A stretch of DNA of 40,119 nucleotides from Candidatus Gastranaerophilales bacterium (GTDB lineage: Bacteria > Cyanobacteriota > Vampirovibrionia > Gastranaerophilales > Gastranaerophilaceae): positions 1 to 40,119 of the forward strand of contig CALVGZ010000018.1 in assembly GCA_944327225.1 (NCBI GenBank). Reading direction: 5' to 3'. How positions within the stretch are numbered: position 1 is the stretch's first letter; every line of letters begins with the position of its first letter. The notes under the pieces are model-generated. The model ran no database searches, had not been told where the DNA came from, and saw only the letters and a list, made by a program, of their open reading frames with translations. A program made the translations under genes and the position numbers. Below are positions 1,882-36,556 of the stretch, piece after piece.

Positions 1882-2988
1882 TTATTTTAATTTTTCAGGA
1901 AAAACAAAATATTTTCTAAGTAAGAAATTACCCAAAACTCCGACGCCGCTTGAAATTGTTTTAGACCAGAAATTACCGCAGCCGATTATAATCAAACCAA
2001 GAGTTGTGTAATAGTCAATTGTTCCCATTATTATTAAAGTGATTATGTATGTAATAATTTCCATTGCGGAGTTCCAGCGGGCTTTGTGTCGAAATAGAAT
2101 TAAAATACATAAAATATAATTTACGAATGCGGATATAAAAAACGCAATTGCTATGTTTAAAATCAGATTATTAAATATCGTTGTAAGTATCATAAAAGAA
2201 ATAATATTCGCAATTGCACTTATGCCACCTATAAATAAATATAAAATAAATTGCATAGGAATAGGAGCCGTATTTGCACCATAGTGAAATATGCAATACA
2301 TTGCTCTTAATCCGTCTTTTGCTTTTATTTTTTTGCCTTCTTCGTATGTTCTTGGAGTGTATGAAATTGCAGTTTCATACACTCGCCAATTACCTTTTGC
2401 AACTTGAATTGTAACTTCTGGTTCGAAACCAAATCTGTTTTCTTTCAGTTTTGGTGCAATTTCTTTTATAACTTCTTTTTTAAATAATTTGTAGCAAGTT
2501 TCCATGTCTGTAATGTCGAGATTTGTGTACATATTGGTTAAAAGAGTCAGAAATTTATTCATACACGTATGCCAGAAATAAAGAACTCTTCTTGTATTTT
2601 GTTTTAGATATCTTGAGCCAAAACAAACATCAGCTTTATTTTCAAGTAAAGGTTTTAAAAGTTTAATATAATCTTTTGGGTCATATTCATTGTCTGCATC
2701 TTGTATTCCTATATAATCACCGGTTGCTTGAATAAATCCTGTTTTAAGGGCTGCACCTTTTCCTTTATTTTTTTTATGAGTAAAAAATTTTATTTTGTTA
2801 TTGTCTGAAATTTTTTCTGCAATCTCTTTGCTTTTGTCATTTGAGCAATCATCAACTAGAATAACTTCAATTTCAATTAAATTTTTTTTAAAATAATCTT
2901 CTTTTTCAAGTTCTATGATTTTATTAACTGTATTTAAAAGTGTTGTTTCTTCGTTATAAATCGGAACTATTAAGCTTAATTTTTTCAT
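1882..2988 (-). CDS. GT2 polyisoprenyl-phosphate glycosyltransferase with C-terminal GtrA membrane domain
   Basis: The N-terminal 235 residues are a DPM1-like family 2 glycosyltransferase: SLIVPIYNEE at the start, the nucleotide-binding VDDCSND and the metal-binding DAD at residues 97-99 (IQDADNEYDP). From about residue 243 there is a GtrA-type domain with four hydrophobic helices (ISAIANIISFMILT, NYILCILILFRHK) ending in NFLLRKYFVFPEK. Such fusions transfer a sugar from a nucleotide donor to a polyprenyl phosphate and help present it for glycan or protein decoration at the envelope; the sugar and target cannot be read from sequence. There is no Shine-Dalgarno. A -10 hexamer ends 6 bases before the ATG, which suggests a leaderless mRNA. 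The gene diverges from fixC. Confidence 0.9.
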   Translation of the reverse strand: MKKLSLIVPIYNEETTLLNTVNKIIELEKEDYFKKNLIEIEVILVDDCSNDKSKEIAEKISDNNKIKFFTHKKNKGKGAALKTGFIQATGDYIGIQDADNEYDPKDYIKLLKPLLENKADVCFGSRYLKQNTRRVLYFWHTCMNKFLTLLTNMYTNLDITDMETCYKLFKKEVIKEIAPKLKENRFGFEPEVTIQVAKGNWRVYETAISYTPRTYEEGKKIKAKDGLRAMYCIFHYGANTAPIPMQFILYLFIGGISAIANIISFMILTTIFNNLILNIAIAFFISAFVNYILCILILFRHKARWNSAMEIITYIITLIIMGTIDYYTTLGLIIIGCGNFWSKTISSGVGVLGNFLLRKYFVFPEKLK

Positions 2989-24536: not shown

Positions 24537-25647
24537 AAATAAAGAAAAAATATATTTTATAACGGGCGGCGGTACCGGCGGTCATATTTATCCCGCTGTT
24601 TCGGTTATAAATACTTTATTGGATACAAAAGTTCAAAATAGTAATATATTTTATCTTGGTAATAAAAAAAACATGGAGTTTGAAATTGCAAAGAAATACA
24701 ATTATAATTTCTTAAGTCATGGTGCAAAAGGCATGCCAAGAAAATTAAGTTTAAAGTTTATTTTCTGGTTTTTCGGTTTATTTTTTTCAACATTAAAGAC
24801 TTCGTTTTATTTTTTGAAATATAGACCAAATGCTGTTTTTGCAACGGGTGGGTATGTCTGTGCTCCTGCGTTATTTTGTGCTTTATTTTTCAGGGTTCCT
24901 TATGTTTTGCATGATTGCGATATCCAACCGGGAATTGTAACAAGATTTTTTGCCCCCTTTGCATATTGTGTGTCTTTGGCTTTTGATGGTGCAAAGAAAT
25001 ATATAAAATCAAAAAATATTCAAGTGAGTGGAAATCCTATACGTCAGGAATTTAAAACAATATCTAAAAAGCAGGCAAGAGAAGAACTTTCAATCAAAGA
25101 TGATTTTACGATACTTATTATGGGCGGATCTTTAGGGGCGAGAACAATAAACAATTCTTCTTTTAAAATTTTAAAAGAGTATGCAAATAGAGAAGGCTAT
25201 AAAATATTATGGCAGACAGGTAAGAAAAATTTTGATGAAGTCACAAGAAAAATACTTGATGAATTTCAAAGTTTACCTGACAATTTAGTTTTACAACCAT
25301 ATTTTGACAGAATGTACCTTGCTTTGTTGTCTTCAGATGTTGTAATTTCAAGGTCAGGGTCTTTGAGTTTGTCTGAAATATGTGCAAGTTCTTTGCCTTC
25401 GATTTTAATTCCTTATCCTTATGCAAGCCAAAATCATCAATACAAAAACGCAAAGAATTTAGTGGAAAATAATGCAGCACTTTTAATTGAAGATAAGGAT
25501 TGTAATAATGAAAGTTTGTTTGAACTTTTAAATAAATTAATTAATGATAAGGCACTTTTATCGGATTTGTCTTATAATGCGTATAAGCAAGCAAAATTAA
25601 ATTCTGCCGAACAAATAACCGAACAAATTAATAAGGCAATAAAATAA
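24526..25647 (+). CDS. murG: Lipid II synthase MurG (GlcNAc transferase)
   Basis: MurG adds GlcNAc to lipid I, making lipid II on the cytoplasmic membrane face. The 373 residues start YFITGGGTGGHIYPAVSV, the Gly-rich loop that contacts lipid I. GGYVCAPALFCA, LHDCDIQPGIVTRF and GNPIRQEF follow in the N-terminal lobe. The C-terminal GT-B lobe has IMGGSLGARTIN, SRSGSLSLSEICASSLPSIL and the UDP-GlcNAc site PYPYASQNHQYKNA. The start overlaps ftsW by 11 bases. The stop TAA shares its last base with the ATG of folC. Confidence 0.97.
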   Translation: MFNKNKEKIYFITGGGTGGHIYPAVSVINTLLDTKVQNSNIFYLGNKKNMEFEIAKKYNYNFLSHGAKGMPRKLSLKFIFWFFGLFFSTLKTSFYFLKYRPNAVFATGGYVCAPALFCALFFRVPYVLHDCDIQPGIVTRFFAPFAYCVSLAFDGAKKYIKSKNIQVSGNPIRQEFKTISKKQAREELSIKDDFTILIMGGSLGARTINNSSFKILKEYANREGYKILWQTGKKNFDEVTRKILDEFQSLPDNLVLQPYFDRMYLALLSSDVVISRSGSLSLSEICASSLPSILIPYPYASQNHQYKNAKNLVENNAALLIEDKDCNNESLFELLNKLINDKALLSDLSYNAYKQAKLNSAEQITEQINKAIK

Positions 25648-26873
25648 TGCAAACTGCTAAAGAAATTTTAACTTCTTGTGATAAATTTCACATTAGTTTG
25701 GGCCTTGATAGAATAGGAAAAATATTAAATATTTTAAATAATCCCCAAGATAATCTAAAGATAATTCATGTTGCGGGGACAAACGGTAAAGGTTCTGTTT
25801 GTAAAATTATAAACGAAATTTTAATTCAATATTTTAAAAATACAGATAAAAAAATCGGTCTTTTTACGAGTCCTCATCTTTTTTCATATACCGAAAGAAT
25901 TAAAATAAACAATAAGGATATTTCAGAAGATGATTTTAATGAATTAGTCAATAAAATTGATAATCTTGCAGGTAGTTATAATATTGAATTAACGGAATTT
26001 GAACTTATAACTGCTGTTGCCTTTTATTATTTTTCTTTAAATAAGGTTGAATACGTTGTTTTAGAGGTTGGCTTGGGGGGAACGTATGATGCAACAAATA
26101 TTGTAAAATCCCCATTGGTTGAAGTTATAACCGAAATTGATTTAGATCATATTCAAAGGTTGGGTTCGACTGTGGAAGAAATTGCTGTTCAAAAAGCCGG
26201 AATAATTAAGCAAAATTCTAAAGTTGTATTTTTAAAAACTAACAAAGGTTATAATGTTTTAGAAAAAATTGCAAATGAAAAAAAAGCTGAAATTATTACA
26301 ACTCCTAAAGTCAAGGTGGAGTTTAAAGATAGTGCAAATTATGCGATTATTGATGCTAATGAATGTGAATTTAATCTTTTAGGTTATCATCAAGCTGATA
26401 ATTTAGCCCTTGCAATTGGTGCAATTAATGCAATCGGACTAAATGTAAATTTTGATATTTTGCAAAGGGCTTTGAAATTTGTAAAATGGCCTTTTAGGCT
26501 TGAATATCACAGAGAAAAAAATATTTTAATTGATGGAGCCCATAATCCTTCGGGGGCAAGCACTTTAAGAAGGTTTTTAGATAATTATTTTAACAATCTT
26601 GATAAAACATTTATTTTTGGATGCTTAAATAATAAAGATTATAGAAGAATGCTTGATATTTTGTTGACGAAAGATGATGAATTTTATTTTTATGAGTTTA
26701 ATTATCCAAATGCACTTAAATATGATGAGTTGGATGAACAATATAAAGAAAGAGCCATAAAAATTTTAAATACAGTTGAAATTGAACAAATAATTGAAAA
26801 AAAACAAAATTTAAAAATTTTTTGCGGTTCTTTATATATGCTGGGAAAAATTTTTAGTGAAATAAAAATTTAA
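25647..26873 (+). CDS. folC: Folylpolyglutamate synthase / dihydrofolate synthase
   Basis: FolC adds glutamate to folates, and in many bacteria also to dihydropteroate. It belongs to the Mur-ligase superfamily. The 408 residues show LDRIGKILNIL at the N terminus, the P-loop HVAGTNGKGSVCKI, TSPHLFSYTERIKIN, LEVGLGGTYDATN and DLDHIQRLGSTVEEIA. The C-terminal domain begins LIDGAHNPSGASTL and ends CGSLYMLGKIF. These are FolC, not MurC, signatures. It is tied to murG by a one-base stop/start overlap, in the place where murC often stands. The 3' end overlaps the convergent gene by four bases. Confidence 0.95.
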   Translation: MQTAKEILTSCDKFHISLGLDRIGKILNILNNPQDNLKIIHVAGTNGKGSVCKIINEILIQYFKNTDKKIGLFTSPHLFSYTERIKINNKDISEDDFNELVNKIDNLAGSYNIELTEFELITAVAFYYFSLNKVEYVVLEVGLGGTYDATNIVKSPLVEVITEIDLDHIQRLGSTVEEIAVQKAGIIKQNSKVVFLKTNKGYNVLEKIANEKKAEIITTPKVKVEFKDSANYAIIDANECEFNLLGYHQADNLALAIGAINAIGLNVNFDILQRALKFVKWPFRLEYHREKNILIDGAHNPSGASTLRRFLDNYFNNLDKTFIFGCLNNKDYRRMLDILLTKDDEFYFYEFNYPNALKYDELDEQYKERAIKILNTVEIEQIIEKKQNLKIFCGSLYMLGKIFSEIKI

Positions 26874-28399
26874 TTGTCTTTTTTGTTTGGGTGTAAATGA
26901 AAATATTGACATCCGTTCCATATTAAAATTTCATTTTGGGAAATTTGGCATTTACCATTAAGACAGTCTAATGTTCCATCGGGACAAAGAGTAAAATGTT
27001 GACAATTTTGACAGGTTTTAAGTGTCATTCCTTTTGATTTTAATTTATATGTCATATCTTCGAGTGCATCATGCATTCTTAGGTATGAATCAGTTGTAAT
27101 AAAACGATTACCTTCTCTAAATACAACTTTTCTCATTCCGTCTTCCGAGACCAAATCTAATTTGCATACGAAATCTTTTTTGCCATTATTAACAATAGCA
27201 TTAATGGTTGCTGAGTTAATATTTTCTTCTTCATAGTTACTGTCTATAATTGAACGCATTGTAATATTGTTAATTAAAATTTTAATTTTTTGCCAGCTAA
27301 GACAAAAAGGATATAGCATTAGCCAGAATATTTCTTTTATTTGCATTTTTGAAACATTTATAGATATTATAAAGTTTATAAATAAAAATACTCCAAGTAA
27401 GTATACCAATTTTTCAGCTGTATGATTCGGGAAGTATATACTTAACCATACAAGAAATAAAAATCCGAATAATACAAACAATGAATTTGGTTTAAGAAGA
27501 AACAGCATAAACTCTTTAAATGAGTTGCTTTTAAAGGCAATTAATGGAAAATAGTGCGAAAATATCATAAACTTATTTCTTAATGTTGGGGTTGAAAAAT
27601 TGAAATTTTTAATATCTATTGCCGTTATTATATATGGGCAATAAATTGATTTAATGTCATTTGATGCCAGTTCCAGTGAATATTCAAGTTCAGAGTCTTT
27701 ATCTTCTAAAGTGACATATCCTATTTTTTCTAAAACATCATTTGTAATAATAAGATTGTCTCCATCTATAAAAAATGGGAGATTAAACATAGAACGAACT
27801 ATATTGTTTGTTCTGTCTACATATTTCAGATAAGATGAAATAATTGAGTTTTTAATTTTTTTAGCCAGTTGATTTTTTTCATTGACTGATATTTTTGAGC
27901 CAACCAGAACACAGGGTTTAGCTATTGATTTATTTATATTTTCCAGATATTTTTCTCCAACCATTCGATTTGCACCCAAAAATACGTAAGCATCAAACTT
28001 ATTTTCCGGAATCATCTTATTGATAAGCAAGTTTATGGCTTTATCTTTTGAAAAATAATCGGGGTTTTGAATATTGTGTATTCTTGCACCAAGTGCAAAG
28101 TCTCTTGAAGGGTTTGTGTCGTTTTCTTCTTTTTGATATGCAACATGTACTTCATAGAATTCTTTTGGGTAACTTTGATTATTCAAGACAGAAAGAAGCT
28201 TATCAAGATTTTTGTCTTTTTGGGTTGCATATATAAGTACACAAATTTTATTTTTTTCAATGACTATGCTTCTTGTTTTTTCGTGCATTTCAAAATATTT
28301 TTCAATATCATTTGCCTTGATAAAGAAAAATAATTGGTAAATGCAATAAATAAAAAGATATATTATTAATAATGCAAATATTGTATCGAATACTATCAT
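26870..28399 (-). CDS. GT2-like membrane protein with degenerate catalytic motif and Cys-rich tail
   Basis: The layout of this 509-residue protein follows processive GT2 enzymes such as BcsA/NodC. There is one N-terminal helix (3-28) and a GT-A-like domain (50-270; SVLNNQSYPKEFYEVHV is the usual Q-x-YP opening). Three or four helices (about 275-375) and a soluble C-terminal domain follow. The usual metal-binding Asp-x-Asp is replaced by LGANR at 141-145 and no QxxRW is seen, though an LED (231-233) stands where the catalytic base should be. The tail has six cysteines (463, 466, 472, 479, 484, 497) plus His, a possible zinc or iron-sulfur site. It may be an inactive relative or a new enzyme; I cannot say which. 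No Shine-Dalgarno; TAAAAT ends six bases before the ATG. Confidence 0.75.
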   Translation of the reverse strand: MIVFDTIFALLIIYLFIYCIYQLFFFIKANDIEKYFEMHEKTRSIVIEKNKICVLIYATQKDKNLDKLLSVLNNQSYPKEFYEVHVAYQKEENDTNPSRDFALGARIHNIQNPDYFSKDKAINLLINKMIPENKFDAYVFLGANRMVGEKYLENINKSIAKPCVLVGSKISVNEKNQLAKKIKNSIISSYLKYVDRTNNIVRSMFNLPFFIDGDNLIITNDVLEKIGYVTLEDKDSELEYSLELASNDIKSIYCPYIITAIDIKNFNFSTPTLRNKFMIFSHYFPLIAFKSNSFKEFMLFLLKPNSLFVLFGFLFLVWLSIYFPNHTAEKLVYLLGVFLFINFIISINVSKMQIKEIFWLMLYPFCLSWQKIKILINNITMRSIIDSNYEEENINSATINAIVNNGKKDFVCKLDLVSEDGMRKVVFREGNRFITTDSYLRMHDALEDMTYKLKSKGMTLKTCQNCQHFTLCPDGTLDCLNGKCQISQNEILIWNGCQYFHLHPNKKDN

Positions 28400-28450: not shown

Positions 28451-29206
28451 GTGGATATAATACGTTATGTGATAACTTTTTTAGGTCAATGTGTACAAAA
28501 TTTTATTCAAGCGACAAAATACACTTTTAAAGGCAATGTTCGTTTTTCAGGTGTAATTTCGCAGGCGGCTGCCATTGGATTTGATTCTTTGGGAATTTGC
28601 CTTTCGATAGTTTTTATTGCTGCCTGTGTTATAGCTCTTCAAGTTGCAAAACAGTTTTTAATGTCAGGCGGAGACAGTTATATTGGCGGCTTTTTAACGG
28701 TTGCTTTGGTCAGAGAAATTGCTCCGGGGTTTGCGGCACTGGCCCTTGCTGCACGAGCGGGAACTGCAATAACCGCACAAGTTGCGAATATGCAAGTTAC
28801 AAATCAAATTGACGCTATTGAAGTTTTAAAAGTTGATTCAATAGGGTATTATTTTGCCCCCAGAATTTTAGCCGGTGCAATAAGTTGTTTTTGTATAGTT
28901 TTATTGGCAGAGTTGGTTGGTGTGTTGGGCGGGGCTTTGGTTTCGTATTTTTCTATAGGGCTTCATCCTATCAGATATTTTAATTCTGTTTGGCTAATGC
29001 TTGTTATGAAGGATGTTTATGTTAGTCTTTTAAAAGGTTTGATATTCGGAGCTTTGATTGCTCTTGTTTGTGCAACTGTCGGATACAACACCAGAGGCGG
29101 AGCAAAAAATGTAGGCGAATCAACAACAAAATCTGCAATTTTGTGTACAATTTATATTCTTTGTGCAGATTTAATAATAGGTATTCTTTTTTATATGGGT
29201 GGTTAA
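28451..29206 (+). CDS. mlaE: MlaE/TGD1-type lipid transport ABC permease
   Basis: MlaE permeases form the inner-membrane core of ABC systems that move phospholipids between inner and outer membranes. The 251 residues have five or six helices and the family core LTVALVREIAPGFAALALAARAGTAITAQVANMQVTNQIDAIEVL, followed by the second conserved part GLIFGALIALVCATVGYNTRGGAKNVG and STTKSAI. The start is uncertain: GTG 28451 gives the full length, but TATAAT at 28456-28461 lies inside that frame and points to GTG 28469 (codon 7) on a nearly leaderless mRNA. No MlaF ATPase or MlaD MCE protein is adjacent. Confidence 0.92.
   Translation: MDIIRYVITFLGQCVQNFIQATKYTFKGNVRFSGVISQAAAIGFDSLGICLSIVFIAACVIALQVAKQFLMSGGDSYIGGFLTVALVREIAPGFAALALAARAGTAITAQVANMQVTNQIDAIEVLKVDSIGYYFAPRILAGAISCFCIVLLAELVGVLGGALVSYFSIGLHPIRYFNSVWLMLVMKDVYVSLLKGLIFGALIALVCATVGYNTRGGAKNVGESTTKSAILCTIYILCADLIIGILFYMGG
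28456..28461 (+). promoter_or_regulatory. -10 element that may place the mlaE start at GTG 28469
   Basis: A perfect TATAAT is followed by seven bases and an in-frame GTG at 28469. The -35 is poor (TAGCTT at 28433-28438, 17-base spacer). Confidence 0.4.
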
Positions 29207-36482: not shown

Positions 36483-36556
36483 TGTGCCCAATGGGACTCA
36501 AACCCACACTCTTTGGCTTCGGAGACCAATGCTTTATTCAATTAAGCTATGGGCAC
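36483..36556 (-). tRNA. trnR-CCG: tRNA-Arg, anticodon CCG
   Basis: The 74-base gene folds into a full cloverleaf: acceptor GTGCCCA/TGGGCAC, D stem GCTT/AAGC, anticodon stem TTGGT/GCCAA with loop CTCCGAA (anticodon CCG), variable AGAGT, and T stem GTGGG/CCCAT. The discriminator is A and no CCA is encoded. The T loop is TTTGAGT, with T56 instead of the invariant C; the D loop has G18-A19 instead of G18-G19, so a 19-56 pair is kept as A-U. It decodes CGG, a codon that should be rare in this AT-rich genome. The rest of the 36413-36714 gap holds its promoter, the shared hairpin and the dnaJ promoter. Confidence 0.93.

Follow-up and report, generated by a model that had tools for sequence, protein, structure and literature searches.

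A GT2-like membrane protein of Gastranaerophilales with lost glycosyltransferase motifs and an invariant four-cysteine tail

The window, that is, the whole 40,119-nucleotide stretch that we analysed, is contig CALVGZ010000018.1 (assembly GCA_944327225.1) of a Candidatus Gastranaerophilales bacterium. Its minus strand carries, at 26870..28399, an open reading frame with an ATG start whose translation (509 aa and stop) joins a pseudo-GT2 domain to a four-Cys tail. We read this protein, with a probability of about 0.55, as a membrane-anchored pseudo-glycosyltransferase with a metal-binding Cys tail, most likely a scaffold or regulator and not an enzyme. The evidence comes from the layout and relatives of the protein, the pattern of residues kept and lost in its tail and at its catalytic positions, the selection on the gene, and a genomic link to a TPR protein in related families.

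Architecture, ancestry and distribution

Hydropathy and sequence comparison gave the order of parts as one transmembrane (TM) helix, the GT2 domain, two clear TM helices, an uncertain hydrophobic stretch (residues ~355-373) and the tail. TM1 (residues 2-20; 28340..28396, minus strand like all parts of the gene) and TM2 (residues 306-324; 27428..27484) were located by hydropathy, TM3 (residues 331-349; 27353..27409) by hydropathy together with sequence comparison, and the diverged GT2 (GT-A) domain (residues ~45-300; 27500..28267) by profile, Pfam and NCBIfam matches. A sequence-only reading of this DNA had proposed the architecture of a processive glycosyltransferase, and the anchor, the GT2 domain with its profile matches and the C-terminal TM helices bear this out. 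Because the hydropathy scan found no K/R ahead of TM1 and several behind it, TM1 is probably N-out, with the GT domain in the cytosol. The fourth hydrophobic segment lies between K/R-rich stretches in the sequences compared, so it is more probably a re-entrant or hairpin segment, with the tail on the cytosolic side. The full-length predicted structure was of low confidence (pLDDT 40.0, pTM 0.27) and was used in no fold search, so the assignment of the GT domain draws on no structure. Promoter and terminator scans gave no excess over shuffles.

Searched alone, the window protein (P0001) matched no NCBIfam family and reached Pfam Glyco_transf_21 at E=0.033, below the cut-off. A profile of 51 members (A2) matched solved GT2s in the PDB (6p61 at 6e-8), and when each of the 51 was scanned singly, 35 matched Glycos_transf_2 at E<=0.1 and 42 matched EpsU (best 1.3e-14). 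These profile matches place the N-terminal domain among the GT2s, as a diverged member of the EpsU/PgaC type with significant homology to GT2 families. The EpsU/PgaC-type processive GT2s (NCBIfam NF041865, TIGR03937; Pfam PF13641, PF13632, PF00535), to which many members of the pseudo-GT family have significant profile matches, share with it an anchor, a GT-A domain and C-terminal membrane helices in the same order. Unlike them, the pseudo-GT family has not kept D1, DxD, the base Asp or QxxRW and has an additional C-terminal domain, and its member L124 scores 33.7 bits against a curated cut-off of 700.

An orthologue was found in 185 of the 191 sampled genomes of the bacterium's own family. 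Among 386 genomes drawn from the phylum, 172 were matched by the window protein and 173 by tail profile A4, the latter in families f1, f2, f3 and f5, all within the class; no sampled genome outside the class had a match to the Cys domain. Most families outside the class are probably photosynthetic. Beyond its own family, the pseudo-GT family reaches five further families of the class. Tail profile A1 matched 54 of 117 class genomes, or 53 once G457 (E=0.0097, a 54-aa frame with a stop) was dropped, and these 53 comprise 38 genomes of the own family and 15 in f5, f46 and f47. The 15 outgroup proteins (587-687 aa) have their parts in the same order with a longer linker, and both halves matched in all 15, the weakest matches being 0.0074 for the GT half (L134) and 0.00045 for the tail (L137). 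Most of them carry TRFNE or RRFDES behind the last membrane segment (~residue 410 in L124), which is not seen in the window protein. One outgroup gene (L137:256-2175, minus) keeps the GT half and lacks the four-Cys module at its end, through a possible frameshift or a real loss.

Residues were counted in 79 close orthologues, a set without exact duplicates, partial L048, L059 and L061, and the GT2 outlier L060/L098. Joined to the 15 outgroup proteins, they formed an alignment of 94 members, in which the intact GT2 L098 served as the reference.

The cysteine tail

The C-terminal domain (residues 395-509; 26873..27217), delimited from alignments A1 and A4 and an AlphaFold2 (AF2) model of the tail, is predicted to form a beta-meander, a helix and a strand ahead of a Cys module at residues 463-500 (26900..27013), in which conservation picks out C-x2-C-x2-F ... 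G-x-C ... W-x2-C-x2-F. The sequence-only reading had described a six-Cys module, and there are indeed Cys at 463, 466, 472, 479, 484 and 497, only four of which are conserved. Cys463, Cys466, Cys484 and Cys497 (codons 27011-27013, 27002-27004, 26948-26950 and 26909-26911) are each invariant in 79/79 close orthologues, so the fear that the Cys are not conserved proves false for these four, whereas position 472 is Cys in 22/79 and position 479 in 14/79. On this alignment the module of the tail comprises four Cys, the other two being lineage-specific additions. Elsewhere in the tail, Cys412 is C in 75/79.

The pattern extends to the outgroup families, where the four Cys together with Gly482 and Ala445 are invariant in 37/37 rows (alignments A4 and A6, from which L137, lacking the module at its end, was left out). 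The spacing C-x2-C-x17-C holds in 79/79 close orthologues, with x12-x21 ahead of the last Cys. An aromatic residue stands three positions after the second Cys in 93/93 members and three after the fourth in 72/93, a count that leaves out L137 and L098; the W-x2-C-x-Y-F singled out earlier is present as W494-N-G-C497-Q-Y-F500. Against Pfam and NCBIfam the tail found no convincing family match. The four invariant Cys are, we infer, most likely ligands of a single metal centre, Zn2+ or [4Fe-4S].

Zinc ribbons carry paired CxxC...CxxC. The four Cys might instead do no more than stabilise the tail, as a structural Zn site or through periplasmic disulfides, and sense nothing, an account that is compatible with a dead GT and that we regard as possible, although short of even odds. 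The variable loop (x12-x21) before the last Cys would suit it, as would the uncertain number of membrane passes behind the GT domain. The pattern nevertheless lacks the zinc-ribbon pairing, and the K/R flanks of the fourth segment favour a tail in the cytosol, where disulfides are unlikely.

In a sharper form of the preferred reading, the tail would be kin to X-succinate synthase gamma subunits and serve as a HiPIP-like [4Fe-4S] domain for electron transfer or redox sensing, which would make the protein a redox-gated regulator. A HiPIP- or BssB-type module had been put forward before the PDB search. When the Cys profile was run against 177,635 PDB sequences, the best match was benzylsuccinate synthase (BSS) gamma at E=0.099, not significant by itself, with four Cys and C-x2-F aligned. 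BSS gamma (TutF) scored 15.0 bits, against <=5.5 in 100 column shuffles that kept the Cys (0/100 as good), and two subsets of the alignment (24 and 13 rows) placed TutF at the top of ten small Fe-S sequences tried, at 12.1 and 10.1 bits. A CX2CXnCXnC motif is described as binding the [4Fe-4S] of BSS gamma, and a HiPIP-like fold is described for MASS gamma (PMC12358834); the window protein shares the HiPIP-like feature of C-x2-C-xn-C-xn-C with aromatics after Cys 2 and 4.

Other comparisons are mixed. Against this kinship, MasC, a BSS-gamma homologue, scored only 4.5 bits, which 4/100 shuffles equalled; eight HiPIPs scored 3.3 to 11.4 bits against the Cys profile. Comparison with BssC_TutF (PF08201) gave an hhalign probability of 57%, for a local match to a two-sequence profile. 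Direct comparison with the HiPIP profile, whose set left out L142 for want of a segment fitting the pattern, paired only the first CxxC correctly. Also against it, neither HiPIP (PF01355) nor BssC_TutF had a Pfam match in 37 tails at E<=10, in a search whose HMMER filters drop most weak matches. Clear HiPIP membership is thus unsupported, by both the Pfam search and the profile comparison. BSS gamma and MASS gamma (BssC_TutF), HiPIP-like [4Fe-4S] accessory subunits, resemble the tail in their C-x2-C-x2-F ... C ... C-x2-F arrangement; they differ in being free small subunits of glycyl radical enzymes, unfused to a membrane protein, and the match to them is statistically weak. The lead to BSS gamma and [4Fe-4S] is weak but position-specific and so suggestive rather than proof, and we place the redox-gated regulator on the unlikely side. 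The Cys pattern and this faint likeness are consistent with metal binding, and bear on only part of the metal sensing or redox control that the sequence-only reading had suggested.

The check proposed earlier, structure prediction and search with the tail alone, succeeded in part. In one of five AF2 models the first 68 residues mostly had pLDDT >=70 and showed the beta-meander, helix and strand, whereas the Cys part stayed <50 and is effectively unmodelled. A fold search with these 68 residues gave sub-threshold matches: the best was the Rhs immunity protein TriX (8s2m_A; Z 7.5, rmsd 2.6, 85 aligned), and the others included vasohibin, HVO_2922, an inhibitory subunit of methane monooxygenase and the folds of dsRBD and ribosome-associated factors. 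Foldseek returned no match to the tail model at E<=0.001. No HiPIP appeared among the tail fold matches, which excludes nothing for a Cys part modelled at that confidence. We set aside UfSP2 (E=0.0092), ribosomal L31 (E=0.062) and YedF, for which the match covers the helix-strand-Cys stretch only. The YedF C-terminal domain (TIGR03527, DsrE-like) was matched by 10/13 outgroup members at E<=0.5 (best E=0.0027); the likeness in L124 is a 25-residue match over helix-strand-CGSC and is confined to that stretch, the predicted fold before it being a beta-meander and helix.

Catalytic positions and selection

At the DxD place the window protein has L-G-A-N-R (residues 141-145; 27965..27979), GANR standing where L098 has DADN, so that DxD is absent, as the sequence-only reading had seen. 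A strict DxD occurs in 20/94 members, 18 of them among the 79 close orthologues and including L010 of the same genus. The objection that orthologues have an intact DxD therefore applies to a minority, and even there QxxRW and the base Asp are missing. D1, the nucleotide-binding Asp, survives in 45/94. The [QR]xxRW pattern, present in L098, occurs in 0/94 members, the window protein included, again as first noted. An LED had been remarked near the catalytic base; it is present at residues 231-233, but the alignment to L098 puts the base Asp (xED) on Glu237 (27689..27691), five residues past E232, and the LED was rejected as the base. Asp stands at the base place in 4/94 members, none of these with DxD, and in no member (0/94) are the three catalytic Asp places all occupied by Asp.

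Read by alignment, the family thus falls short of a working GT2 at three motifs, DxD, the base Asp and QxxRW. The same genome encodes elsewhere an ordinary GT2 in which DDRSTDDT, DAD, TDD and QRRRW are all intact, which indicates that the motif reading works there. On a FastTree tree, at least 17 changes fell on the second DxD Asp and at least 9 on the first. Sister species toggle N/D within DxD: L041 (93% identity to the window protein) has GADR, L042 (91%) has GANR and L010 has DADR. In L055, L062, L070 and L072 the D1 Asp and DxD persist and the base place holds Glu; because such members keep much of the site, some lineages might still have activity. For the family we infer an absence of catalytic activity, and the pseudo-enzyme that had been offered as one option emerges stronger than proposed.

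An active, metal-independent glycosyltransferase would have to manage with a substituted site, which in Gastranaerophilales would use Arg145 in place of the metal and Glu237 as the base. There are precedents for such chemistry, since some GT-A enzymes are described as working without DxD or metal, and GT14 and bacterial GT6 are reported to be active without DxD, GT14 by means of basic side chains (PMC7185993). The two residues are well kept among close orthologues, with Arg145 in 69/79 and Glu237 in 72/79. An active enzyme would be expected to keep its substituted site constant family-wide, yet all 15 outgroup sequences have Asp at position 145, with Asn or another residue at the base place; the D1 and QxxRW counts also speak against it. 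We consider such an enzyme unlikely.

The gene is under strong purifying selection. Where computable, dN/dS was ~0.03-0.10 for the whole gene and 0.01-0.07 for the tail, values that give the order of magnitude only, dS being >1 and saturated. Because the gene is retained so widely within its own family under this constraint, chance is excluded. Nearly all orthologues are intact. Among the exceptions, G431 has one stop inside the gene, in G106 the gene is split in two pieces on two contigs, and G162 gave no full-length match and a weak tail match (7e-9). That the window copy is a decaying gene, as its LGANR without both DxD Asp might suggest beside the DADR of same-genus L010, has a negligible probability and is refuted by its intact frame, the intactness and constraint of its orthologues and the recurrence of motif loss across the family. 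Since the motifs are lost across 94 members while dN/dS remains low, the pseudo-GT2 is, on sequence grounds, maintained across several families of one class and is not a single decayed copy.

Gene neighbours and proposed role

The pseudo-GT gene stands alone in the window. A Mur-ligase family gene (25647..26873, plus; Pfam Mur_ligase_M and Mur_ligase_C, FolC-like by eye) converges on it and overlaps its end by 4 bp, and an MlaE permease gene (28451..29206, plus; Pfam MlaE 2.4e-56) diverges from it. An operon with either was rejected, both being on the opposite strand in a neighbourhood that varies between genera. An anti-phage role was set aside, there being no PADLOC match. The window also contains, at 1882-2988 (minus), a GT2 fused to a GtrA/DPMS-type TM domain (Pfam Glycos_transf_2 3e-35, GtrA_DPMS_TM 3e-9) with a DADN motif, and, at 36483-36556 (minus), a tRNA gene that is the sole Rfam match in the window at the gathering threshold.

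In the outgroup families the gene has a recurrent neighbour. A TPR protein of 185-269 aa, whose start resembles a signal peptide by eye, is encoded directly upstream on the same strand, with a gap of 17-192 bp, in 10/15 loci (L123-L128, L130, L131, L133, L137). At E<=1e-24 this TPR family was found in 54/117 class genomes, namely all 53 with the pseudo-GT and G456; the threshold was chosen after viewing the list, in which unrelated TPR matches lie close, at 6e-23. The co-occurrence follows family lines and is confounded by shared ancestry. Because the threshold was set afterwards and the pattern tracks families, we treat co-occurrence as supporting evidence only. In the own family the TPR gene was not adjacent in the loci examined, and the copy in the bacterium's own genome lies on another contig. 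A gene for a CAAX-protease-like membrane protein follows in four of the TPR-pseudo-GT loci (L124, L125, L128, L130).

In the scaffold or regulator reading, a GT2-type domain whose catalytic residues are lost retains the membrane anchors and, to judge from homology, the fold. It is fused to a C-terminal domain specific to the lineage, with four Cys that most likely bind one metal centre. The protein would then most likely scaffold or regulate an envelope process: its dead GT domain would bind a sugar ligand or a partner, while the Cys tail would dock a partner or report metal or redox state. The best candidate partner would be the exported TPR protein. The fullest version is a class-specific system of these non-photosynthetic relatives of cyanobacteria, in which a dead membrane GT2 fused to a HiPIP-like [4Fe-4S] sensor teams up with an exported TPR protein, so that redox or iron state controls an envelope glycan process; we consider it quite improbable.

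COSMC belongs to another GT family, is eukaryotic and is not known to carry a Cys tail of this kind. It offers an analogy only: this GT31 pseudo-glycosyltransferase chaperone (C1GALT1C1) likewise has a GT-A domain, described as lacking DxD and the xED base and as serving as both scaffold and chaperone (PMC7185993). Our literature search, over titles and the starts of abstracts, found nothing on the window protein and no conserved non-eukaryotic pseudo-glycosyltransferase of this kind. To our knowledge, conserved pseudo-glycosyltransferases outside eukaryotes seem rarely described, and we know of no family in which a GT2 domain is fused to an Fe-S module.

The gene is a core gene, near-universal in its own gut-bacterial family. 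If the tail binds a cluster, the protein would be a fusion of a GT2 with an Fe-S module and would provide a testable entry to envelope control in these bacteria.
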